Below are positions 1,161 to 14,105 of a stretch of 22,345 bases of DNA, piece after piece. The translations under genes were made by a program, and so were the position numbers. Source of the stretch: a virus; the IMG/VR virus record IMGVR_UViG_3300021365_000131, positions 1-22,345 of that record; one strand, written 5' to 3'. How positions within the stretch are numbered: the first letter of the stretch is position 1; every line of letters starts with the position of its first letter. The notes below the pieces were generated by a model, which saw nothing but the letters and a program-made list of their open reading frames with translations, made no database searches and was not told the origin of the DNA.

Positions 1161-1185
1161 AAGAAAGGGGCCACCGAAGTGGCCC
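1161..1185 (-). terminator. rho-independent terminator with UUCG loop
   Basis: Minus strand: GGGCCAC-TTCG-GTGGCCC (1185-1168), a perfect 7-bp GC-rich stem closed by a stable UUCG tetraloop, followed by CTTTCTTTT. It lies 16 bases past the stop codon of the winged-helix-like gene. The T-tract is interrupted, so some read-through into the genes below is possible. Confidence 0.85.
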
Positions 1186-1597: not shown

Positions 1598-2065
1598 TTA
1601 ATCAAGGTCAATATCGGGGTCAAACATATCACCACCGTCCCTTAAATAGTCTAATTCTTTTTTTACATCTTTAGAAAACGGATTAGTTGCCGGTTTTGGT
1701 TTTTCTAAAAACATATCGTAAGTTATCTTGGCAGTTCTAAAGTTACCATCTTTGTTAACTTTTAACGATACCATTTTCTCACTTAATAATTGAGCCGGGT
1801 GTGCCATATCAAAATCTCTATATGCAAGACCACGTATTGCGTCTATTACTATCGCAAGGTCTTTTGTAAATGTGTGATTTTGTGTTCTCATACCAGCGTC
1901 AACAAATTTCTTTAATAAGTCAAATCCTATTTCATCAACTAAAGTCTCAACAAAGTCTTTAGTTTGTTTCTTTTTTAATTCCTCTGCAAACTTCGTATCT
2001 TGTTCTTGTCTAACTTCTCTCTTACGTTTATGCTCTGGAAAGAATATGATATTATCATTCGGCAA
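1598..2065 (-). CDS. uncharacterised phage protein (TTG start)
   Basis: 155 aa, soluble. N-terminus PNDNIIFFPEHKRKR, then a charged helix (about residues 18-40) and a helical core (FVETLVDEIGFDLLKKFVDAG, HTFTKDLAIVIDAIRGL), ending in a very acidic tail. The TTG at 2065 is favoured because GGGAG lies 6 bases upstream and no ATG occurs in frame until residue 59. The gene overlaps the end of the glutaredoxin gene by 11 bases. I do not recognise a function. Confidence 0.7.
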   Translation of the reverse strand: MPNDNIIFFPEHKRKREVRQEQDTKFAEELKKKQTKDFVETLVDEIGFDLLKKFVDAGMRTQNHTFTKDLAIVIDAIRGLAYRDFDMAHPAQLLSEKMVSLKVNKDGNFRTAKITYDMFLEKPKPATNPFSKDVKKELDYLRDGGDMFDPDIDLD

Positions 2066-2339
2066 TTATTTCTCCCTTGAAATTCACTTTGTTTTGTTTT
2101 TCAAAATACTCAACTAACTGATTATAACCACCAATTAGCTCACCATCTATTTTAATTTGAGGCATTGCTCTAACATTTTTACCAATGTCCTCAATTAGTT
2201 TACTAGGGTCACCACCAAAATCTTTCTCTAGTGATTTCTCTTCATATTCCAGACCAAGGCCTTTTATCAAGGCCTTTGCCTTTGAGCAATAAACACAATT
2301 GTTTTTACTATAAATTGTTATCGTCATTTTGTTTACCAT
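2055..2339 (-). CDS. glutaredoxin
   Basis: 94 aa with the thioredoxin-fold pattern of glutaredoxins: opening strand TITIYSK, redox motif CVYC (Cys15, Cys18), the conserved cis-proline in AMPQIKI (Pro60), and the glutathione-side GELIGGYNQL segment. It is expected to act in the cytoplasm as a dithiol reductant. T4-like phages commonly carry such proteins as electron donors for ribonucleotide reductase, and this phage encodes NrdA/NrdB at 15.5-19.5 kb; the pairing is inference. ATG 2339 (GGA 5 bases upstream) or ATG 2327 may be the start. It overlaps the lipoprotein gene by about 32 bases. Confidence 0.93.
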   Translation of the reverse strand: MVNKMTITIYSKNNCVYCSKAKALIKGLGLEYEEKSLEKDFGGDPSKLIEDIGKNVRAMPQIKIDGELIGGYNQLVEYFEKQNKVNFKGEIIAE

Positions 2340-2937
2340 CTTTTTCCAACATACTAGACCAAGCTTCTTTTGCTTTTTCTTTTATGTTATGAGCGTCAAC
2401 AGCTTGTTCAATAGTGTAGTTATACATCTTATTGTACTCACCTAATGGCAATCTTAAACCAATCCAAGCTCTGTAATAACCCTCTTTAGTTAAAGTGACA
2501 TCTTGTTTCCAGATTTCATAACCTCTAACTTTGGTATTTTTGATTACATTAATCAAAGTAGATTCTACCTCTGATACGGTAGTCTTCGTATTGGTTTTGC
2601 CAAGTTCAGTAATAAACTGCTTAGACTCTTTATTCATTTCACCTGCTACTACGTCAGCAATTTCTGACTTCGCATACATTTTAGCTTTCTCTATCGCTAA
2701 TTGTAAGTCTGGTGAAACACTAGTAGCAACACCGAATAAACAAAGTTTATCTTTGCCTTTACCAATTAAATCAGTATCACAGGCTTTTCTTTCAGAATAG
2801 TCTGCCATATACCAACTTGGTACTTTATTCATTGTCTTACCATTTTCAGACTTGATTTTGTAAGTACCACCAGCACAAGCATTTAATAACAATGCCGTAG
2901 CAAGTACACCTACTATTTTTAGTTTGTTTTTCATCAT
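2308..2937 (-). CDS. LPP20-like lipoprotein
   Basis: 209 aa. It opens with a lipoprotein signal peptide (MMKNKLKIVGVLATALL) and lipobox LLNAC, with Cys21 as the lipidation site. After VPSWY the mature part has the pattern of LPP20-type outer-membrane lipoproteins: LFGVATSVSPDLQLAIEKAK, a long helical segment, then YRAWIGLRLPLGEY. Expected location is the periplasmic face of the host envelope. LPP20-like proteins are cellular, so this is probably a host-derived gene used to alter the infected cell's envelope (inference). AGGAG lies upstream of tandem ATGs, and a sigma70-like promoter (2958-2986) lies just before it inside a small upstream gene. Confidence 0.8.
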   Translation of the reverse strand: MMKNKLKIVGVLATALLLNACAGGTYKIKSENGKTMNKVPSWYMADYSERKACDTDLIGKGKDKLCLFGVATSVSPDLQLAIEKAKMYAKSEIADVVAGEMNKESKQFITELGKTNTKTTVSEVESTLINVIKNTKVRGYEIWKQDVTLTKEGYYRAWIGLRLPLGEYNKMYNYTIEQAVDAHNIKEKAKEAWSSMLEKDGKQNDDNNL

Positions 2938-3077
2938 AAGTTTTTACTCTCCTTTACATCATATAACAAATCTTGTACAAAGTCAAGCGTGGTTTGAACG
3001 TATCCTAACGCCTGGTCACTTGATACATCATATATTATAACTAAAGCAAGGGAAAGTATGATTAAGTTTCTAATCAT
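2934..3077 (-). CDS. 47-aa single-helix membrane or exported peptide
   Basis: 47 codons plus stop. The N-terminus is one hydrophobic segment (IRNLIILSLALVIIY, residues 2-16) after a short basic start, followed by a soluble amphipathic part with TTLDFVQDLLYDVKE. It is supported by GGAGG 8 bases before the ATG, an ATGA overlap with the upstream 132-aa gene, and a stop codon that overlaps the ATG of the lipoprotein gene. It could be an inner-membrane peptide or a small secreted one; function unknown. A promoter-like sequence lies within it. Confidence 0.65.
   Translation of the reverse strand: MIRNLIILSLALVIIYDVSSDQALGYVQTTLDFVQDLLYDVKESKNL
2958..2986 (-). promoter_or_regulatory. sigma70-type promoter within a small gene
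   Basis: Minus strand: TTGACT (2981-2986), 17 bases, TATGAT (2958-2963), preceded by GC as in the other promoters of this window (GCTTGAC). It lies inside the 47-aa gene at 2934-3077 and would give the LPP20-like lipoprotein its own transcript with a leader of roughly 15 bases. Confidence 0.7.
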
Positions 3078-3472
3078 TGAACGACCTCCCATTTTCCGTC
3101 TGGTTGAAGACACAACTTCCCATATGATTTAAAAGCGTGTCCTTGTCGGCTATAATACCGACAATATTGAGGCATTTTGGTAGTATTGAAGTAGTAAAAT
3201 TGAGCAAACAAGTCCCAATAACCGAGACCGTCTTGTCTTCTTTTACCATCAGCACATTCCATCACCTCTTCTTTTATTATTTCATCACCTTTTTGTTTGA
3301 TGATTACTTTAATAAAGCAGTATTGCCCTCCTGTTTCTTCAGGATTGATAGGCAAAATCTTTGCGTAATAATTCTCATCTTTAGCATTAGCTATACCAGT
3401 AATTAGTAAAAATACTATTAATATAAATGACCAAGTCAAATATCTTTTTATTTTATTATCGGGGTCAAACAT
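3074..3472 (-). CDS. exported protein with 17-kDa-surface-antigen-like C-terminus
   Basis: 132 aa. Residues 12-30 (LTWSFILIVFLLITGIANA) form a hydrophobic signal or anchor with a possible cleavage site at ANA-KD. The mature part holds several cysteines and ends with CRYYSRQGHAFKSYGKLC followed by QPDGKWEVV. This resembles the C-terminal signature of the 17-kDa surface antigen family (C-R-E-Y ... Y-G-x-x-C-x-x-P-D-G-x-W), also seen in the lipoprotein at 3823-4326. Expected location is periplasmic or outer-membrane-associated. Overlaps with both neighbours suggest coupled translation. The family link is by motif only. Confidence 0.65.
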   Translation of the reverse strand: MFDPDNKIKRYLTWSFILIVFLLITGIANAKDENYYAKILPINPEETGGQYCFIKVIIKQKGDEIIKEEVMECADGKRRQDGLGYWDLFAQFYYFNTTKMPQYCRYYSRQGHAFKSYGKLCLQPDGKWEVVQ

Positions 3473-3623
3473 TTGCTACACCTAATTTCTTTAAACTATC
3501 ATTTACTTCATAAAGTTTATCTTCTATCTCTTGTATTTTAGAAGATGGTCCATTAAACTCATAAAGTTCTAATTCTTCTTTTAGTTCTTGTTTTTCTTTT
3601 TTAAGAATTTCTATTGTACTCAT
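3465..3623 (-). CDS. 52-aa coiled-coil protein
   Basis: 52 aa, strongly helical and charged: IEILKKEKQELKEELELYEF, then SSKIQEIEDKLYEVNDSLKKL, a probable antiparallel coiled-coil hairpin broken at NGPSS. The ATG at 3623 forms an ATGA overlap with the stop of the upstream gene, and its own stop overlaps the start of the next gene. These two overlaps and the absence of other coding in this gap support it. No function can be assigned. Confidence 0.7.
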   Translation of the reverse strand: MSTIEILKKEKQELKEELELYEFNGPSSKIQEIEDKLYEVNDSLKKLGVANV

Positions 3624-3823
3624 TTTACACTCTTTTTATTTTGTTCTAAATTGTTTACAAATACTCTTATCAACCTTGATACATCTACCTCTTGCTCTTT
3701 AAGAGTTTTTGGATTTTTAAATAAAACTTTACTATCATTTACTTTTAAAACGTGTTGACCATCTACAATCACAGCTTCGTCTGTGTTTTTTCGCCAATCG
3801 TGTGAGCTATATTCTTTTGACAT
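3620..3823 (-). CDS. 67-aa uncharacterised protein
   Basis: 67 aa from the ATG at 3823, which shares one base with the stop codon of the lipoprotein gene upstream (TAATG) and has GAGG 9 bases before it. The frame is open further upstream, but that would run inside the lipoprotein gene. The sequence EAVIVDGQHVLKVNDSKVLF followed by a Lys/Glu-rich helix suggests a small mixed beta/alpha fold. Soluble; unknown function. Confidence 0.65.
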   Translation of the reverse strand: MSKEYSSHDWRKNTDEAVIVDGQHVLKVNDSKVLFKNPKTLKEQEVDVSRLIRVFVNNLEQNKKSVK

Positions 3824-4326
3824 TAGTTTAACCTCGGTTTTTCTATCCATTGACCATCTGGTAACTGACAAGCAGTACCAAATACAACTTTTCTATTAAC
3901 ACCACCAATACCAATCAACGGCCAACTATTAGTAATATCAACCGTGTGGTCATACTCTGTACATTTTAATGGCCCCTGTGTATATGATTTTGTTGTATGA
4001 ATTATACCAGAATTACCAGTTTTAGAATTGTACCAATTTGTATAACTTGCACCGTTTGGCGCCGTGTTTAAATGGTCTACAAATACTGCGTTATGTACAT
4101 CTTTGTCTGAATTGTAAAGTAGTTCAGCACCTGTAAATGCACCAACAACGGCACAACCAGCAACAGCATAAGGGTCTGTAATACCAGACTCTACACATAA
4201 TGCTGTGGTAGAACCACCACCTGAAATAGCACCTAAATGTGTTCTATTTACGGTACTACAATTTGTCAACGTCAAGACCATTATAATCATAATGGTTGTC
4301 TTTTTCAATAGTTTTTTCATAATCAT
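3823..4326 (-). CDS. lipoprotein, 17-kDa surface antigen-like with glycine-rich segment
   Basis: 167 aa. Signal peptide MKKLLKKTTIMIIMVLTL with lipobox TLTNC (Cys23). Next comes a Gly/Ala-rich segment (GAISGGGSTTALC, VAGCAVVGAFTGAELLY, about residues 33-70) resembling the glycine zipper of 17-kDa surface antigens. The C-terminus has CTEYDHTVDI and then FGTACQLPDGQW, the conserved ending of that family. Predicted location is the outer membrane of the infected cell. These antigens are typical of Rickettsiales and other alphaproteobacteria, so host origin is plausible. It overlaps the upstream gene by about 70 bases, unusually long for this window. Starts at 4326 and 4320 are both possible. Confidence 0.75.
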   Translation of the reverse strand: MIMKKLLKKTTIMIIMVLTLTNCSTVNRTHLGAISGGGSTTALCVESGITDPYAVAGCAVVGAFTGAELLYNSDKDVHNAVFVDHLNTAPNGASYTNWYNSKTGNSGIIHTTKSYTQGPLKCTEYDHTVDITNSWPLIGIGGVNRKVVFGTACQLPDGQWIEKPRLN

Positions 4327-4504
4327 TTATATTCTCAAAAAATTCAGAGTCAACTTTAGTTTTAGCAACTAATAATGAATCTGCTTGTATAACTTCAATC
4401 TTGTTTCTAATTAATGGGTCAGATGGCGAAGTCTCTCTCAAATTATCCGCCATCTTCTTTATAGAATCAATCTTATCACAAAAAGATTTAATATTCTGTA
4501 CCAT
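4256..4504 (-). CDS. 82-aa uncharacterised protein
   Basis: 82 aa, soluble and charged, with helical segments (NIKSFCDKIDSIKKMADNL; RNKIEVIQADSLLVAKTKV) and an acidic end. The ATG at 4504 overlaps the upstream stop (TAATG), with no strong ribosome binding site, as expected for coupled translation. Its last 70 bases also encode the signal peptide of the next gene in another frame. Function unknown. Confidence 0.6.
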   Translation of the reverse strand: MVQNIKSFCDKIDSIKKMADNLRETSPSDPLIRNKIEVIQADSLLVAKTKVDSEFFENINDYEKTIEKDNHYDYNGLDVDKL

Positions 4505-4848
4505 TAGTTTTTAACAAAAAGATTAGTTATCTTTTCCTTTGTACTGATAAATTGTGCTTTCATATCAGCCCAAGACTCTGCTTGGTATTCTTTTGTTTTC
4601 TGCCATTCACTCTGAGCAAAGTCTTTTGCTTTCCCAGGTACAGCAACAACCGTTTCTACAAACTCCTGTGGAGTTATTGTAGTCACTTCATCAGCTTTCG
4701 CTTTATTAAGTTCTAAAGATACAATTACAAACGCAGCTATGACTACCATACCCCACATTGCAACTTTCTCCCAAACTTTTTTTATCACTTTATCCACGAT
4801 TTCCTCTATCTGTTGGTTTGTTAAATAATTAGACACCGACACCCTCAT
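4504..4848 (-). CDS. membrane-anchored or exported helical protein
   Basis: 114 aa from ATG 4848 (110 aa if the GTG at 4836, which has GAGGG just upstream, is used). A short cytoplasmic helix (QQIEEIVDKVIKKVWEKV) is followed by a hydrophobic segment (AMWGMVVIAAFVIVSLEL), then ADEVTTITPQEF and long amphipathic helices (KDFAQSEWQKTKEY, AQFISTKEKITNLF). It is either a type II membrane protein or, with a late cleavage after KAKA, an exported one. It overlaps the upstream gene by up to 20 bases. No known family recognised. Confidence 0.65.
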   Translation of the reverse strand: MRVSVSNYLTNQQIEEIVDKVIKKVWEKVAMWGMVVIAAFVIVSLELNKAKADEVTTITPQEFVETVVAVPGKAKDFAQSEWQKTKEYQAESWADMKAQFISTKEKITNLFVKN

Positions 4849-5170
4849 TAGCTCTTTTTTCCATAAGTTCAATCTCGGAGATTCTCATTTTTTCAGCATA
4901 TGACATACCAAAAACTTTGTTATAAAAATAGTCTAGTGGACTAACTGATTGATAAGCGAGCAATAAGTTATCAAACTTTATATCTAAACTATCATAATAT
5001 TCGGGGTGTTTATTTTTAAGTTCTATATGGTCTTTACAGAATTGTATTCTATTTGTGTAATAATCATTCAACTTGTCAAACATAGATTTCTTCTTACTCA
5101 ATTTGACATCTTTATCTTTTGCATTTTTAAACTCTGCAAATAGAGTTTCTTTTTCATACTTAAACGACAT
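4829..5170 (-). CDS. 113-aa uncharacterised protein
   Basis: 113 aa, Lys-rich and helical, with many aromatic residues (LNDYYTNRIQFCKDHIELK, PEYYDSLDIKFDNLLLAYQ, LDYFYNKVFG). It is the first gene after the promoter at 5210-5238, with GGGAGG upstream of the ATG and a leader of about 33 bases. It heads the unit of small envelope-related genes to its left. Function unknown. Confidence 0.7.
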   Translation of the reverse strand: MSFKYEKETLFAEFKNAKDKDVKLSKKKSMFDKLNDYYTNRIQFCKDHIELKNKHPEYYDSLDIKFDNLLLAYQSVSPLDYFYNKVFGMSYAEKMRISEIELMEKRANEGVGV

Positions 5171-5209: not shown

Positions 5210-5238
5210 ACTATACCAGAAAACTCTCTAAATGTCAA
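5210..5238 (-). promoter_or_regulatory. sigma70-type promoter, near consensus
   Basis: Minus strand: TTGACA (5233-5238), 17 bases, TATAGT (5210-5215), again preceded by GC (GCTTGACA). The expected start near 5203 gives a leader of about 33 bases with GGGAGG before the gene at 5170. Hairpins of the upstream unit lie just before it. Confidence 0.85.
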
Positions 5239-8282: not shown

Positions 8283-8954
8283 CTATTTCCAGTTGTCCAG
8301 CACCCAATCAACGTCTGATTCGTGTGGATTAGGGTTTCCGTGAAACACGGCCACCAACGATTCGCTATCTTTTTCAAACGTCCAATCGTTCTTATGAAAT
8401 CTTGGCTCTTTTCTAGTAAACCACTTATATGAGAAAGACCACTCATTTGGCATATATTTTAATTCGGGGTGATTCTTCATAAATTCATAGGTCACATTCT
8501 GGTCACCTTGATATTTACGCCATCTTGGTCTGTCTTCGTAATACCTATCCCACACAGCCGGTGTCATAGTTATATTATTAAATTTCATAATAGAAGAATT
8601 AATACCAGTTGTACCTGTGAAGTCGTGCAATGCACCAAAGGTGTCCGTAAAACCAAATTTTGCCATCTTATCAATATTTTTTAGGATGACCACATCCAGG
8701 TCCATATAAAGATTTTCACCAATTAGACCACTTTCAGGATGAAATAGTTGTAGTTTGTTCCACCAACCTTGTTCATCATCAAGTGGAAACTTTCTATACT
8801 CTATATCACCTTTTACTATTCTATGTAATGAAGTGTTGTCCGTAAAGCAAATAAATTTGTGGTCTATCGTTAGATGTCGGTTGACCATATTGTACAATTT
8901 CTGTACATATTCTGGTCTGTATTTGTTTCCATAATAAACGCATACGAAATTCAT
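8283..8954 (-). CDS. GT-A glycosyltransferase
   Basis: 223 aa. GT-A pattern: nucleotide-sugar strand FVCVYYGN at the start, WWNKLQLF, and the metal-binding DxD motif in YMDLDVVIL (Asp85, Asp87), then GINSSIMKFN, GDQNVTYEFM and a C-terminal VFHGNPNPHE typical of GT8/GT32-like enzymes. It should transfer a sugar from a nucleotide donor to an unknown acceptor in the cytoplasm. ATG 8954 is chosen over an upstream GTG at 8957 that overlaps the previous stop. It is the last gene of the glycan cassette. Confidence 0.85.
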   Translation of the reverse strand: MNFVCVYYGNKYRPEYVQKLYNMVNRHLTIDHKFICFTDNTSLHRIVKGDIEYRKFPLDDEQGWWNKLQLFHPESGLIGENLYMDLDVVILKNIDKMAKFGFTDTFGALHDFTGTTGINSSIMKFNNITMTPAVWDRYYEDRPRWRKYQGDQNVTYEFMKNHPELKYMPNEWSFSYKWFTRKEPRFHKNDWTFEKDSESLVAVFHGNPNPHESDVDWVLDNWK

Positions 8955-8956
8955 CA

Positions 8957-9574
8957 CTACATCTTTTTAAAGTTAAATGCTACAGATATTCTTTTCTTTG
9001 TTTCATTTAGATTTGGTAATACACCGTGAGTTAAGAAACTAGGAAATAAATACATAACACCTGCCTCTGCTTTACAAGTACAATGTATATTGGTTCTAGG
9101 GTGGTTGTTTTTATCTTTTATATGTTCGTCCCAATATGCCTCTAATTCTGTAGCAGCTGGACTAGTAAACATTATATCGCCAGATTTTTCTGGTGTTTGT
9201 ATATAATATACACCTGAAAATATACAACCTGCGTGTCTATGGTCTTGGTTGTAATCTTTATAACCATTTATATTAAACCATAAGTTATCTAATATGACTT
9301 TAGGTAAACCTAAATTACTTGCAAACTCATCAGCTTGTTCTTGTAAAAATGCATACAAAGGTTTTAATCTTTTATGATATTCAAGGTCAATATCTTTTGA
9401 TTGAAAACCACCCTCGTTAGATACTAAACGACCTTTAGGGTTTTGTGTATTTAATCTACCCTCATTGTCTTTACAAAAATCTAAAATGTAATTAGCTAAA
9501 ACATCATTATCTAAAATAGATTTTGACACCTTTACAGGTGTTGTAAACATATCAAATTCACCAGTTTGTATCAT
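8957..9574 (-). CDS. 2OG-Fe(II) oxygenase (TIGR02466-like)
   Basis: 205 aa. It matches the phage-common putative 2-oxoglutarate/iron dioxygenase family: NLWFNINGYKDYNQDHRHAG with histidines 112/114, SGVYYIQTPEKSGDIMF, then YLFPSFLTHGVLPN (His183) and KRISVAFNF (Arg195, the likely 2OG anchor). Such enzymes hydroxylate proteins, sugars or small molecules using oxygen. Which acidic residue completes the iron site is not certain from sequence. It starts at ATG 9574, sharing one base with the stop of a GT-B-like gene, so it is made with the sugar enzymes; its substrate could be a glycan, a virion protein or the host surface. Confidence 0.85.
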   Translation of the reverse strand: MIQTGEFDMFTTPVKVSKSILDNDVLANYILDFCKDNEGRLNTQNPKGRLVSNEGGFQSKDIDLEYHKRLKPLYAFLQEQADEFASNLGLPKVILDNLWFNINGYKDYNQDHRHAGCIFSGVYYIQTPEKSGDIMFTSPAATELEAYWDEHIKDKNNHPRTNIHCTCKAEAGVMYLFPSFLTHGVLPNLNETKKRISVAFNFKKM

Positions 9575-10440
9575 TATTTTACTTGTTCCTGTATTTGATT
9601 TGGTTTTAATAAATTGTTTGGTTGTGCCATTAACATTTCATAAGCCGTACCATCAGCAATCTCTTTTAATTTAAACTGATTATCAACTACCATTTTCAAC
9701 CATTCATTTACCGTTTTATGACCAGGTCTTAAAGGTTTAATTACTTTACTAATATGTTGGCCTGCAATAAAACTTACAATGTTTCTTTTGTGTGCAAAGA
9801 CAGGTGTTCTATTTAAAATAGCGTCAACAGCTGATAATGACATATTAGTTATTAATGCTTGACAACCTTGTAAGTCAACTTTAATATCTGTATTCCACCA
9901 TTGGTTTCCAGGTCTTGGTTTCTGTCTTACTTTAATTGGCATATTTTCAAACTCTGTATCTTTGGTCATATTTGTAATTTGTGTTGTCGCCATTTCAATC
10001 CATTTTTCTACTGAACAACCATTAATATGAAAAGTTACCGTTGGTGATGATGGTGCTAATAAGAAGTGTGTCATCTTACCAGTATCCCAACCTTTAAATT
10101 GAACATCAATGCCTTCGTGTTCTAATTGACTTATTCTTTTACCGTCACCTATTTTACCTCTGATAGTATGTAAATTACCTTTACAAATTCTAATATAGAA
10201 TCTGTCCCAATCTACAATAGGTTCTGGATATCTTGTAAAAGGAGCATTTAAATAACCTACATCAACATACCACCATTCTTTATCAAGATGTACACACTCT
10301 CTAATTAATTCTGTATTTTTACCACCTAAACCCCAAAAGAAGTGTATCTCGTGGTCTGCGTCTTGCCAACCTTTTTCAATTGCTGGCCAAATCTTATGAG
10401 ATAAACATTTATCCCAACTCATTTTATGCGTTATAATCAT
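9574..10440 (-). CDS. GT-B-like surface-polysaccharide protein, paralog 3
   Basis: 288 aa. C-terminal half carries LQGCQALITNMSLSAVDAIL followed by NRTPVFAH, the acceptor-side signature seen in GT-B capsule and lipopolysaccharide enzymes (a conserved Ser/Ala-rich helix before a PVF strand). The N-terminal half shares W-Y-V-D-V-x-Y, a GW..G..HFLLAPSSPT segment and a C-terminal WLKMVVDNQFKLKEIADGTA with the 272-aa protein at 11428-12246. AGGAG 8 bases before ATG 10440 fixes the start, giving a 17-base overlap. Sugar donor and acceptor unknown. Confidence 0.7.
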   Translation of the reverse strand: MIITHKMSWDKCLSHKIWPAIEKGWQDADHEIHFFWGLGGKNTELIRECVHLDKEWWYVDVGYLNAPFTRYPEPIVDWDRFYIRICKGNLHTIRGKIGDGKRISQLEHEGIDVQFKGWDTGKMTHFLLAPSSPTVTFHINGCSVEKWIEMATTQITNMTKDTEFENMPIKVRQKPRPGNQWWNTDIKVDLQGCQALITNMSLSAVDAILNRTPVFAHKRNIVSFIAGQHISKVIKPLRPGHKTVNEWLKMVVDNQFKLKEIADGTAYEMLMAQPNNLLKPNQIQEQVK

Positions 10441-11431
10441 TTAATAATCTCCTATGAACATCACCGTTATTAATCTCTTCTTGTTTCCATTGTGTATAAG
10501 CACAATCATATAGCCATTGTGTTCTATCAAATTTACAATTGATAGTCTTATTTCTTATTACTTCTAAACTATGATAACTAACTGGCCAAGCGTGTGATGA
10601 TTTTGATAATGCCACCGTTGGTATACCCTCACAAACACTTTCTACTAGAGCATTGCTTGAATATGATACTACAACTCTTGCACCATCTAAATCTTTTTGA
10701 AATCCACTACCACCATTTGTTTCATTAAAATCATCATAGTTATTACTATATATAATTTTGTTTTTGATACCTGCTTCTCTAAATCTTGTAAAGAAACCAC
10801 CTTTTTGACCACCCTCTGGTTTTATATTACCATACTTACTTAAAAATCTAGGATGAAATCTTACTTTAATTGGCTCATCTGTATAACCACTTATGTCTCT
10901 CATTACCCAATACAAATAATTTAAATAATTCCAACTTATACCCTCACCTTTTGTATATCTAATTAATTTATCTTTCATTTCAGGTGTGTACAAATCGTTT
11001 AAACTTGTATCAGTAGGGTTTTGTAAACATAATAATATATAATTGCCTTTATTTCTCCAAGGTTTTATATCAATGTTTTGTTCTTTTTGTATCATCTGCC
11101 ATCTATCAGCTGGTGAATTATGATTTTTAAATATACCTTTATCGTATGTGTAATCATTTAAACCAACTCTATAATAATAATTAGGGTCACCTACTTTTAT
11201 GCCTCTTCTAAATGTAGCGCCTTCTAAAACTATTAATGGTTTTTTAGTGTCTGAAATATATTTGTATTGGTCTTTATAGTCTTTAAAATAACCTTTAACA
11301 CCTGTTGTGATATATGCCTTAGCGTGTTCAAGATGTTTACGGTCTTCAAACTTGGCATACTTGTAAATTTCGTGTGTAGGAAATTTAAAGAAATCGCCCT
11401 CTCTAAATGCACCCCAAAAACCGACTATCAT
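10424..11431 (-). CDS. GT-B-like surface-polysaccharide protein, paralog 2
   Basis: 335 aa, the longest and most divergent of three related neighbours. It has the same C-terminal signature, DLDGARVVVSYSSNALVESV followed by CEGIPTVAL, which fits the sugar-nucleotide binding region of GT-B enzymes, plus YILLCLQNP where the others have HILVCPPTP/HFLLAPSSP and IKVRFHPR where they have IVRKK or KVRQK. No signal peptide or membrane span, so probably cytoplasmic. ATGA overlap with the gene upstream. Likely a glycosyltransferase or related polysaccharide enzyme, substrate unknown. Confidence 0.65.
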   Translation of the reverse strand: MIVGFWGAFREGDFFKFPTHEIYKYAKFEDRKHLEHAKAYITTGVKGYFKDYKDQYKYISDTKKPLIVLEGATFRRGIKVGDPNYYYRVGLNDYTYDKGIFKNHNSPADRWQMIQKEQNIDIKPWRNKGNYILLCLQNPTDTSLNDLYTPEMKDKLIRYTKGEGISWNYLNYLYWVMRDISGYTDEPIKVRFHPRFLSKYGNIKPEGGQKGGFFTRFREAGIKNKIIYSNNYDDFNETNGGSGFQKDLDGARVVVSYSSNALVESVCEGIPTVALSKSSHAWPVSYHSLEVIRNKTINCKFDRTQWLYDCAYTQWKQEEINNGDVHRRLLNDYNA

Positions 11432-12246
11432 TGCAACCTCTTAACTGCCTCGTAGGCAACACCATTTTTAAACTCTTCTAAATTAAACTGACAACTTAAT
11501 AAACTATCTATCCATAAATCTATAAGTTCTTTGTCTGCATAAAAAGGGTTTTCTATATGTTCTAACTTTTCACTAACAGGATATGATTGAGATACACCAT
11601 TACAAAATACAGGCACACCAGCTAATACTGCTTCAATAGCAGCTGTTGATTGCATTGAAACTAAAGCGTGACAGCCTTCAAGTTGTTTAGTTAAAGGTTG
11701 TGTTTCATTCTTTTTTCTAACTATTATTTGTCTATCTGTAAATCTTCTTAACTCTGCGAGTGTTTCATCAATCCACATTTGTTCATCTATATGATATAAT
11801 CTACATATCGCTGGTGTTGGTGGACAAACTAATATATGTGTGCCAAACTTCCAACCATTAAATGTTATTGGTTTATATTTTTGAATTCTTTTTTTATCTT
11901 TATTTGTAAGTTCTACTATTTTATTAAGTTGCATTTGATTTTTTACAACTCTATATAACTGACCATATTTACCTGGCATATAGTCTCTAGTAGGATAAAA
12001 GTATGCGTGGTCCATATAATAAAATTCGTGGTTTCTTTTCTGACATTCCCATATAACTTTTTCTGAACCTCTTAATGTACCAACAACTGCAATAGGATTA
12101 GTAGTCCACTTTTGCCAATCAAACGTAGGCCAACTACCAACTTCAAAAGCAGGTATTTTTTCTCTGCTATTTTTATGTCTTATTTTGCTAAATGCATAGA
12201 TAAATCTATCTTTAGCACCTGCGTTTGTACAAAATCCTTCTATCAT
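11428..12246 (-). CDS. GT-B-like surface-polysaccharide protein, paralog 1
   Basis: 272 aa. Key segments are YYMDHAYFYPTRD, FNGWKFGTHILVCPPTPA, RQIIVRKKNETQPL, and LEGCHALVSMQSTAAIEAVL followed by AGVPVF, the GT-B-type C-terminal signature. The end (LLSCQFNLEEFKNGVAYEAV) aligns with the same region of the 288-aa paralog. ATGA overlaps at both ends give a strictly coupled run with a GT-A enzyme upstream and another paralog downstream. Resembles capsule polysaccharide enzymes in general layout; exact reaction unknown. Confidence 0.7.
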   Translation of the reverse strand: MIEGFCTNAGAKDRFIYAFSKIRHKNSREKIPAFEVGSWPTFDWQKWTTNPIAVVGTLRGSEKVIWECQKRNHEFYYMDHAYFYPTRDYMPGKYGQLYRVVKNQMQLNKIVELTNKDKKRIQKYKPITFNGWKFGTHILVCPPTPAICRLYHIDEQMWIDETLAELRRFTDRQIIVRKKNETQPLTKQLEGCHALVSMQSTAAIEAVLAGVPVFCNGVSQSYPVSEKLEHIENPFYADKELIDLWIDSLLSCQFNLEEFKNGVAYEAVKRLQ

Positions 12247-12911
12247 TCTATATCACAACATTCATCATATAATTTTAACCATTCTTTTGAGTAATCACAA
12301 TCTCTATATTCATTAAACCAAGGTCCACCCTCTGTAAAGTGAATATTTTTTACATCTTTTTTATACTCATACTCACCTGCTAACCAGTTCCACTCTAATG
12401 GTAATTCACCAATTAAATTATCATCTGACAACCATTTAAATTGATGTAGTTGTAAACCTGTGGCTGTATTAACATAATCTGGTGTCAATGATGTACACTT
12501 ATCACAATTCATAAGCATAAAACTAGACCAATTCTTTTTAGGATATTTTGTTTGTACTTGACCTAAAAATTTTGTTTCTGTTCTAGGTATATAATCGTGT
12601 TTACAAACTTGAACGGCATATTTCTCATCACGTAATCGCCATAATTCAGCAATATCACCGACCATTAATTGGTCACAATCCATAAAAACTGCCCAGCCTT
12701 TATAGTTTGTAAGATGAGGTACAATAAATCTACTAAAACTAAATTCAGTTGATTCTATATTACTTCTTTCTCTTGTAAAGTTATCTTTTATGTTAGGTAA
12801 ATATACTGGTGTAATAGATACAGGTCTTGTACTATTTTTTAATATACTATAAGCAAGAACATTAAACGCCACTTTTTCTTTACTATCATAACCGATAAAA
12901 ACTTTAATCAT
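12243..12911 (-). CDS. GT8-like glycosyltransferase (GT-A)
   Basis: 222 aa from ATG 12911 (a TTG at 12917 is less likely). Opens with KVFIGYDSKEKVAFNVLAYS, the donor-binding strand and helix of GT-A enzymes; the metal motif is FMDCDQLMVGDI (Asp78, Asp80). Further conserved blocks are CKHDYIPRTETKFLGQVQ, YPKKNWSSFMLMNCD, LSDDNLIGELPLEWN and IHFTEGGPWF, an arrangement I recognise from bacterial and phage GT8-like proteins. It should add a hexose or related sugar to an unknown acceptor. Part of the overlapping cassette. Confidence 0.88.
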   Translation of the reverse strand: MIKVFIGYDSKEKVAFNVLAYSILKNSTRPVSITPVYLPNIKDNFTRERSNIESTEFSFSRFIVPHLTNYKGWAVFMDCDQLMVGDIAELWRLRDEKYAVQVCKHDYIPRTETKFLGQVQTKYPKKNWSSFMLMNCDKCTSLTPDYVNTATGLQLHQFKWLSDDNLIGELPLEWNWLAGEYEYKKDVKNIHFTEGGPWFNEYRDCDYSKEWLKLYDECCDIE

Positions 12912-13392
12912 ATGCAATAATACCCATAACTGGTGTTTTAGTTTCTAAATCGTGTATCTCATCTAACTTCATTCTATACCATTTACCTGGTTCAGGTTTA
13001 AATTTAAACTTACACAATTCAGCTTCTTTATCCTGTACTCTTCTTGTTTCATTAATACGTTCATTTTCAAACCATTGGTTCCAAAAACGCCATTGATTAT
13101 CTTCAAACTTAACAGGATAAAAAAGTATTTCTTGTATTCTATTGTCTACAAACTTATCTGTATCTTGACCAATATAATAGAAAAACTTTTCCTTTTCTGG
13201 TAATAGTGTCATTCTCAATTCATTCTTTAACCATTCTCTTAATTCATCTGATACCTTATGATAACTAAATTCTTCTCTGTATTTTTCGTAAATACCATCT
13301 ATTGGTTTTTCTTTTACTACATCAAAGTCTTCTATCAGTTCTTCAGGTACAGGTTTTATGTTTTCTTCTTGTACATATGAATTGTATATCAT
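12904..13392 (-). CDS. uncharacterised protein in glycan cassette
   Basis: 162 aa, soluble, rich in Glu, Lys and aromatic residues. Distinct blocks: SYHKVSDELREWLKNELRM, EKFFYYIGQDTDKFVDNRIQ, NQWRFWNQWFENERINETRR and a C-terminal KPEPGKWYRMKLDEIHDLE. I recognise no family. It starts in an ATGA overlap with a GT-A gene and ends overlapping the next GT-A gene, so it may be a partner of these enzymes or supply a modification step; that is inference from position only. Confidence 0.65.
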   Translation of the reverse strand: MIYNSYVQEENIKPVPEELIEDFDVVKEKPIDGIYEKYREEFSYHKVSDELREWLKNELRMTLLPEKEKFFYYIGQDTDKFVDNRIQEILFYPVKFEDNQWRFWNQWFENERINETRRVQDKEAELCKFKFKPEPGKWYRMKLDEIHDLETKTPVMGIIAYD

Positions 13393-14105
13393 ACTCTAGC
13401 CTCCGGACTTTTCATTAACTTCTTTCTTTTAGGACCTTTTATATGGTCATAAACTGGTCCTAATATTGACCTTGCTTGAACGTGTCCTACTTTACCGTCA
13501 CCAATGTCTTTGTTTATAACACCATTTTTTTCAAATCTTTTTCTTACTAAATCCCATATATAACTATCGTGTTGTTCTTTTTCTTTATATATTAAATCTT
13601 CATTATACATCTTTTGCATTTCAATGCCATAGTTTACCACTTCAGGATGTTTCATATTAAAATATAAAAAACCACATTCACTATAATGATTGCCTCTACC
13701 TAGATAACTCATCATAGCATTATCACTATGTATATGTTTTTTAATAAAATCTTCATCTATCATTTTGTAGAATATACTATCTGCGTCTATACAAATTAAA
13801 CCATCATAGTCTTCATTGGTTATAATTTCATTTGTATAAGCATATACTTTATAACTAAATCTAACACCATCATTGATATAACCAGCAGGTGTATCTGCAA
13901 CAGGTCTTTGTTTGTTTCTATTAACAAACTCCTCGCATTGTGGTATTTCATCAAACGTACTTTTAGGAATTAAGTTAGTATGTGGTATATCTAACATATC
14001 TTCACTATATACAATCAAGTTAAATGGCCAGTTATAAGTTTCAAAAAACTTATGACCATATTGTTTGTATAACTTTTTGTTTAATGTGGTAACTACTGCA
14101 ATCAT
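13389..14105 (-). CDS. GT-A glycosyltransferase-like protein
   Basis: 238 aa. MIAVVTTLNKKLYKQYG opens like a GT-A Rossmann strand, FSYKVYAYTNEII precedes the DxD motif in DGLICIDADSIFY (Asp107, Asp109), and YSECGFLYFNMKHPEV and EQHDSYIWDLVRKRF follow as the acceptor-side blocks. The C-terminus (HVQARSILGPVYDHIKGPKR) holds a conserved-looking His and basic residues suitable for phosphate contact. Transfer of an unknown sugar is expected. ATGA overlaps with FkbM upstream and the 162-aa gene downstream. Confidence 0.8.
   Translation of the reverse strand: MIAVVTTLNKKLYKQYGHKFFETYNWPFNLIVYSEDMLDIPHTNLIPKSTFDEIPQCEEFVNRNKQRPVADTPAGYINDGVRFSYKVYAYTNEIITNEDYDGLICIDADSIFYKMIDEDFIKKHIHSDNAMMSYLGRGNHYSECGFLYFNMKHPEVVNYGIEMQKMYNEDLIYKEKEQHDSYIWDLVRKRFEKNGVINKDIGDGKVGHVQARSILGPVYDHIKGPKRKKLMKSPEARV

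Follow-up and report, generated by a model that had tools for sequence, protein, structure and literature searches.

Layout and transcription of the cassette

The stretch of DNA analyzed here (the window) is a 22,345-base virus record (IMG/VR IMGVR_UViG_3300021365_000131), which encodes phage-type genes such as those for ribonucleotide reductase and glutaredoxin. It is close to Pelagibacter phage Mosig EXVC030M, with 73.6% identity over 1.2 kb. One end of the window holds a cassette of small genes in the order p113-p122-p82-p167-...-p132-tm47-LPP20-glutaredoxin-p155, an order conserved in pelagimyophages (Table 1). Relatives of both p167 and p132 are found among named phages only in Mosig and HTVC008M. 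The host of both is Ca. Pelagibacter ubique HTCC1062, a member of SAR11, the most abundant bacteria of the ocean. This agrees with a preliminary description of the window, which took the ends of the two proteins as a hint of an alphaproteobacterial host. The counterparts of p167 within the same cassette are Mosig_00171 and HTVC008M gp173, the latter already annotated as "putative outer membrane protein; surface antigen protein". The one contig of apparently cellular origin carrying a 98% identical gene was set aside: it is a MAG contig that looks like the phage itself, and the order of that MAG lacks the SAR11 16S signature. Elsewhere in the window, a run of glycosyltransferase- and methyltransferase-like genes (8283-14105, named from the Mosig annotation at the matching place) matches the hypervariable host-recognition island described for pelagimyophages.

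Table 1 Features of the cassette, with positions in the window
Feature	Description	Position	Strand
Promoter	Conserved, sigma70-type, TTGACA-17-TATAGT, upstream of p113	5210..5238	-
p113	First gene of the putative operon	4829..5170	-
p122	Predicted membrane-anchored helical protein; counterpart in a SAR11-order chromosomal operon	4504..4872	-
p82	Small cassette gene, overlaps p167	4256..4504	-
p167	17-kDa-family lipoprotein, 167 aa: signal peptide and lipobox LTNC, Gly/Ala-rich hairpin, C-terminal 17kDa_Anti_2-type beta domain	3823..4326	-
p167 hairpin	Residues 28-70, predicted helical hairpin with invariant extra Cys44/Cys58	4117..4245	-
p167 beta domain	Residues 85-163, conserved Cys122/Cys153, FGTACQ-PDG-W end	3838..4074	-
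p132	132 aa, predicted exported (signal peptide, AxA site), four conserved cysteines; own family	3074..3472	-
tm47	47-aa single-TM protein with short amphipathic tail; overlaps p132 and LPP20	2934..3077	-
LPP20	LPP20-type lipoprotein; homologues in SAR11-order chromosomes and phage Melnitz	2308..2937	-
Glutaredoxin	Overlaps LPP20	2055..2339	-
p155	Conserved cassette gene	1598..2065	-
Terminator	Intrinsic terminator-like hairpin with T-rich tail; downstream end of the putative transcription unit	1168..1185	-

In 59 of 60 distinct loci p167 and p132 are colinear; p132, tm47 and LPP20 overlap or abut in all informative loci, and most of the LPP20-glutaredoxin-p155 neighbours overlap as well. The sigma70-type promoter is matched at 10 or more of 12 positions in 43 of 52 distinct homologous upstream regions, compared with about 10% of 160-mers drawn at random from those contigs, and its spacer is 17 bp among the matches listed. 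The gene overlaps and the consensus promoters together point to transcription of the cassette as one operon. In HTVC008M, the T4-type late motif ATAAATA stands no more than 110 bp upstream of 10 of 24 structural genes and of 1 of 13 other genes. No copy was found within 110 bp of the leading cassette genes of this phage; one copy stands 75 bp before gp179, inside the LPP20 gene. As a conserved sigma70-type promoter precedes the cassette and the late motif was not found there, expression is probably early.

The LPP20 product scores 19.8 bits against PF02169 (E 0.0011; cut-off 25.9). Its gene is regularly overlapped by that of the glutaredoxin, and the exported products of the operon are rich in conserved cysteines. 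In phage Melnitz, which infects OM43, an LPP20 homologue (L120 7087-8657) is preceded by a similar 45-aa TM ORF and by genes for an exported protein with cysteines and for a tiny lipoprotein, and the group stands directly ahead of a cell wall hydrolase; no homologue of p167 or the 17-kDa family was found in Melnitz.

Relationship of p167 and p132 to the 17-kDa family

Many Alphaproteobacteria carry lipoproteins of the 17-kDa family, which in rickettsiae are known antigens. The preliminary description, correct in its coordinates, signal sequences and C-termini for both proteins, had likened the last residues of p167 to the conserved end of that family. The resemblance runs over the full length of the protein, far beyond the end motif. 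Alignment of the p167 family with 27 bacterial members, taken from those extracted in a class-wide genome search, gives an hhalign score of 140 over 152 columns, against 20.4 for the best of 100 column-shuffles, with lipobox, glycine-rich hairpin and C-terminal domain all colinear. We rely on the score relative to the shuffles and not on the single-pair E-values of hhalign. The C-terminal domain alone, free of the signal peptide, scores 74 compared with 17 when shuffled. PF16998 (17kDa_Anti_2), the Pfam family matched by most members of the p167 family, is matched by 23 of 23 diverse relatives including the window protein, with a best E of 4.5e-5. None was seen above the gathering cut-off of 26.6 bits (window p167, 17.4; gp173, 21.4). 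PF05433 (glycine-zipper 2TM) is matched weakly, in 3 of the 23 members (E 0.33).

The motifs of the bacterial proteins run lipobox, glycine-zipper, W-N-N-P-x-S-G-N-S-G, Y-C-R-E-Y and Y-G-T-A-C-R-Q-P-D-G-S-W, and those of the phage proteins lipobox, Gly/Ala hairpin, W-Y-N-x-K-T-G-N-S-G, K-C-x-x-Y and F-G-T-A-C-Q-x-P-D-G-Q-W. Common to phage p167 and to the bacterial and rickettsial family (PF05433 glycine zipper plus PF16998) are the lipobox, the glycine-rich hairpin, the W-N-x(n)-TGNSG segment and the C..Y / GTAC--PDG-W end with its two cysteines; the domain holds exactly two in 23 of 23 phage and 27 of 27 bacterial members. The lipobox Cys23 of p167 is invariant across the alignment, and the +2 residue that follows it is non-Asp in all members, which is compatible with sorting to the outer membrane. 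On this evidence, membership of p167 in the alphaproteobacterial 17-kDa surface-antigen lineage, as a genuine full-length member, is well supported. The earlier claim that the phage encodes a bacterial-type 17-kDa outer-membrane lipoprotein near one of the LPP20 type is supported as well.

The phage proteins differ from the bacterial ones in having fewer glycine repeats, an insertion of about 10 residues in the domain (WPLIGIGGVN) and two additional cysteines in the hairpin. The pair, Cys44/Cys58, is present in 23 of 23 phage members and in 0 of 27 bacterial members, and it probably forms a disulfide that could staple the membrane hairpin. HTVC008M gp173 (L119 9944-10294) is a natural variant in this respect: it retains lipobox and domain and is missing the hairpin entirely. 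Formation of a membrane ring therefore cannot be the essential part, which suggests that the indispensable portion of p167 is the periplasmic domain. In a tree of the domain, all phage proteins, that of HTVC008M included, form one clade (99/95) apart from the bacterial proteins, which fall on one side of a branch (96/89). The tree has 91 columns and long branches that meet, and we use it solely for the single phage grouping. These phages apparently acquired the gene once, from bacteria.

Profile searches of the PDB with the p167 and p132 families returned nothing significant, and searches of PHROGs and NCBIfam returned no useful family. The AlphaFold models of the two phage proteins are poor (mean pLDDT 55 and 67), with two helices predicted at low confidence in the hairpin of p167. 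The best Foldseek hit of the p167 model has an E of 0.34, and a match of the hairpin to SlyB was the one noteworthy outcome of Foldseek/VIA.

The preliminary description had paired p132 with p167 as a second 17-kDa-like protein. The short C-terminal likeness is real, but family membership is not borne out. Mature p132, with its signal peptide removed, aligns to the 17-kDa domain over 33 C-terminal columns with a score of 34, compared with 21 for the best of 150 shuffles; six unrelated cassette families reach 14.7 at most. A score of 38 for the full-length protein is uninformative, since the LPP20 control reaches 37 through its signal peptide. PF16998 is touched weakly by 11 of 27 members of the p132 family (best E 0.0044), and the mature profile alignment does not extend the PF16998 domain beyond the last 33 or so residues. 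Across 385 genomes the p132 profile has a single match, to the C-terminal end of a true 17-kDa protein (E 3.3e-4). The AxA-type signal peptide of p132 is not accompanied by a lipobox cysteine. Profile comparison thus places p167 in the family over its full length, though under the Pfam cut-off, and relates p132 to it by the C-terminus only; p132 is best described as a separate family that shares its last 33 or so residues with 17-kDa proteins.

Counterparts on SAR11-order chromosomes

The two proteins had also been called host-like. To place the SAR11 order among the genomes we used the SAR11 16S signature probe site, which we take to mark it; the exact signature is present in genomes G233 and G322, and these anchor the order. 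PF16998 is matched in 1 of 197 genomes of the order, below threshold, compared with 83 of 142 in the class. The explanation that the host simply has the same gene is thus rejected for most of the order. A more sensitive mixed profile gave clear matches in six genomes of the order and marginal, partial ones in six more, and an empty genome search does not prove that a gene is absent.

The single sub-threshold match led to a chromosomal operon, found in 5 of the 197 genomes (G416, G487, G543, G544 and G596; loci L193, L194, L195, L192 and L196, respectively). It encodes counterparts of p122 and p132, an LPP20 lipoprotein and two divergent lipoproteins of the 17-kDa family, mostly in overlapping ORFs. 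In three of the five genomes a pseudopilin-like gene (GFTLIELLVVVAIIG) stands beside or between the two 17-kDa paralogues. In the operon flanks that were inspected, the neighbours look by eye like ordinary chromosomal and not phage genes; in G487 they include isocitrate dehydrogenase and phospholipid-synthesis-like genes. The operon was not detected in G233 or G322, and its host base is narrow.

Comparison of phage and chromosomal proteins gives scores of 117 for LPP20 (19.7 shuffled), 55.6 for p122 (15.7 shuffled) and 36.8 for p132 (18.5 shuffled), the last over 69 columns that include both cysteine pairs. The p167 domain scores 29.0 against one chromosomal 17-kDa paralogue (14.7 shuffled) and, not significantly, 18.6 against the other (17.0 shuffled); the corresponding scores of the bacterial 17-kDa family are 51 and 39. 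The four common genes stand in a different order in phage and chromosome. The same content in a different order suggests that p122, LPP20, p132 and the 17-kDa lipoprotein function jointly. The term host-like holds in part: a canonical family member was found in one of the 197 genomes, below threshold, and the phage clade stands apart, but a small lineage carries an operon with counterparts of all four proteins.

LPP20-like lipoproteins occur in another setting in the same order. On five SAR11-order genomic islands (L202 1013-1941, L203 1483-3123, L204 1486-3127, L206 1435-3243 and L207 1435-2465) such a gene adjoins one for a small exported protein with the motif NG-x-(V/I)-x-S-x-K-x-I-x-x-C, and four of the five adjoin a resolvase-type recombinase. 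The island LPP20 scores 49 against that of the phage (21 shuffled); the score of the small exported protein is not significant. These pairs are possible lysogenic-conversion or exclusion genes. No recombinase-linked LPP20 pair was found in the phage collection and IMG/VR.

Proposed function and comparison with known systems

The preliminary description had offered receptor masking or envelope stability as possible roles for these proteins. Four cassette genes have counterparts that form a single operon on some SAR11-order chromosomes, and this suggests remodelling by the virus: the outer envelope of the infected cell would be rebuilt with a borrowed bacterial module. The reading that we tentatively prefer, while holding it at somewhat less than an even chance, is a co-transcribed early envelope module taken from bacteria, most likely for superinfection exclusion and perhaps for membrane protection. 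Soon after infection, phage lipoproteins would be set on the inner side of the outer membrane and could there bind or ring outer-membrane proteins or lipids. p167 would act there with p132 (periplasmic and cysteine-rich), the membrane-anchored p122 and the LPP20 lipoprotein, and the extra cysteine pair could staple its hairpin in the membrane. Most likely this would close the infected cell to phage competitors, much as T5 Llp acts from the periplasm and TraT acts against plasmids, and the weakened membrane of the cell may also be protected during the infection. Exclusion fits best, and protection second, because the promoter is of an early type, the proteins carry envelope localisation signals and the module is a borrowed bacterial one.

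A bolder form of this proposal, which we regard as doubtful, is that one multi-protein envelope machine, made up of the 17-kDa lipoprotein, p132, p122 and LPP20 and not described in the papers searched, is common to pelagimyophages and the SAR11-order lineage. The phages would have co-opted it once and would express it early, closing the outer membrane to competitors, and the disulfide-stapled hairpin would be a phage innovation.

Among the alternatives, the one that survives best is a SlyB-like guard of the outer membrane. Here the lipoproteins would keep outer-membrane proteins and patches of lipid stable as the phage empties the small SAR11 cell, so that it does not rupture prematurely, and exclusion of other phages would be incidental. 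SlyB rings and encapsulates outer-membrane proteins under stress (reviewed in PMC13067283), and the bacterial 17-kDa profile matches it (7ojf) over the glycine zipper with an E of 8.7e-5. In a comparison with the SlyB-BamA structure, the hairpin of p167 aligns weakly with SlyB (52 residues, Z 4.2), but this value comes from a low-confidence model and may reflect merely a common arrangement. With a hairpin missing from HTVC008M and no sequence match of the phage profile to SlyB, we consider this account unlikely, if worth keeping in view.

The pseudopilin-like gene of the chromosomal operon raises the prospect of a host role in a type IV pilus or a type II-like secretion apparatus, which the phage copy would modify or block, for example where pili are phage receptors. 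This seems improbable, as the phage cassette has no pilin, two of the five chromosomal operons lack the pseudopilin at that position, and neither genome with the exact 16S signature has a detectable operon. Still less probable is a lysis module, in which p167 or LPP20 would pair with p122 or tm47 as a spanin-like link between outer and inner membranes for the last step of lysis. Predicted outer-membrane lipoproteins do adjoin small single-TM proteins here, and both Mosig and HTVC008M have genes for peptidoglycan hydrolases a few kilobases further downstream; yet the conserved promoter is sigma70-type and not late, p122, LPP20, p132 and p167 have cellular homologues, and tm47 has merely about 25 residues outside its membrane segment. 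The least probable reading makes the products virion components, or the genes mere passengers that have no envelope role themselves, given an operon conserved in most examined pelagimyophages over large divergence, invariant cysteines, and leading genes before which the late promoter motif was not found.

In the literature searched we found no described function for the 17-kDa lipoproteins and, in what was not a complete check, no paper on the cassette or its chromosomal counterpart. The phage operon, with three partners that also stand together on host-order chromosomes, names likely partners for the 17-kDa lipoprotein, and function becomes testable in a cultured pair, HTVC008M or Mosig on Ca. 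Pelagibacter ubique HTCC1062. Should superinfection exclusion prove true, it would reveal how SAR11 phages of large size and small burst hold their own against fast podophages in these bacteria, the most abundant in the sea.

Several known systems resemble the cassette in part. SlyB, an outer-membrane lipoprotein of E. coli, has a lipid anchor, a glycine-zipper hairpin and a beta domain in common with p167, but its domain order and C-terminal sequence are unlike, and the phage family gives no profile match to it. Pelagimyophages have already been proposed to change the host surface against co-infection, and they carry curli-like CsgG/CsgF genes, which are again bacterial outer-membrane genes on a phage and were not detected in SAR11 (PMC7029224). 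That is another gene cluster with another protein family, and we rejected it as the identity of the present one; the Mosig genes tested near thyX have no curli match in Pfam. TraT of F-like plasmids belongs to a chromosomal outer-membrane lipoprotein family that mobile elements have repeatedly co-opted for surface exclusion (PMC11733297). It is larger than p167 and forms a surface-exposed ring; Pfam TraT is matched weakly by two members of a mixed alignment (A4), and a shared ancestry with p167 would be speculative. T5 Llp, with Cor, is unrelated to p167 in sequence and is a single gene, not an operon. The likeness lies in the kind of protein, a small phage-encoded periplasmic outer-membrane lipoprotein with a disulfide, and Llp, acting from the periplasm, binds its receptor and thereby prevents superinfection (PMC9586334).
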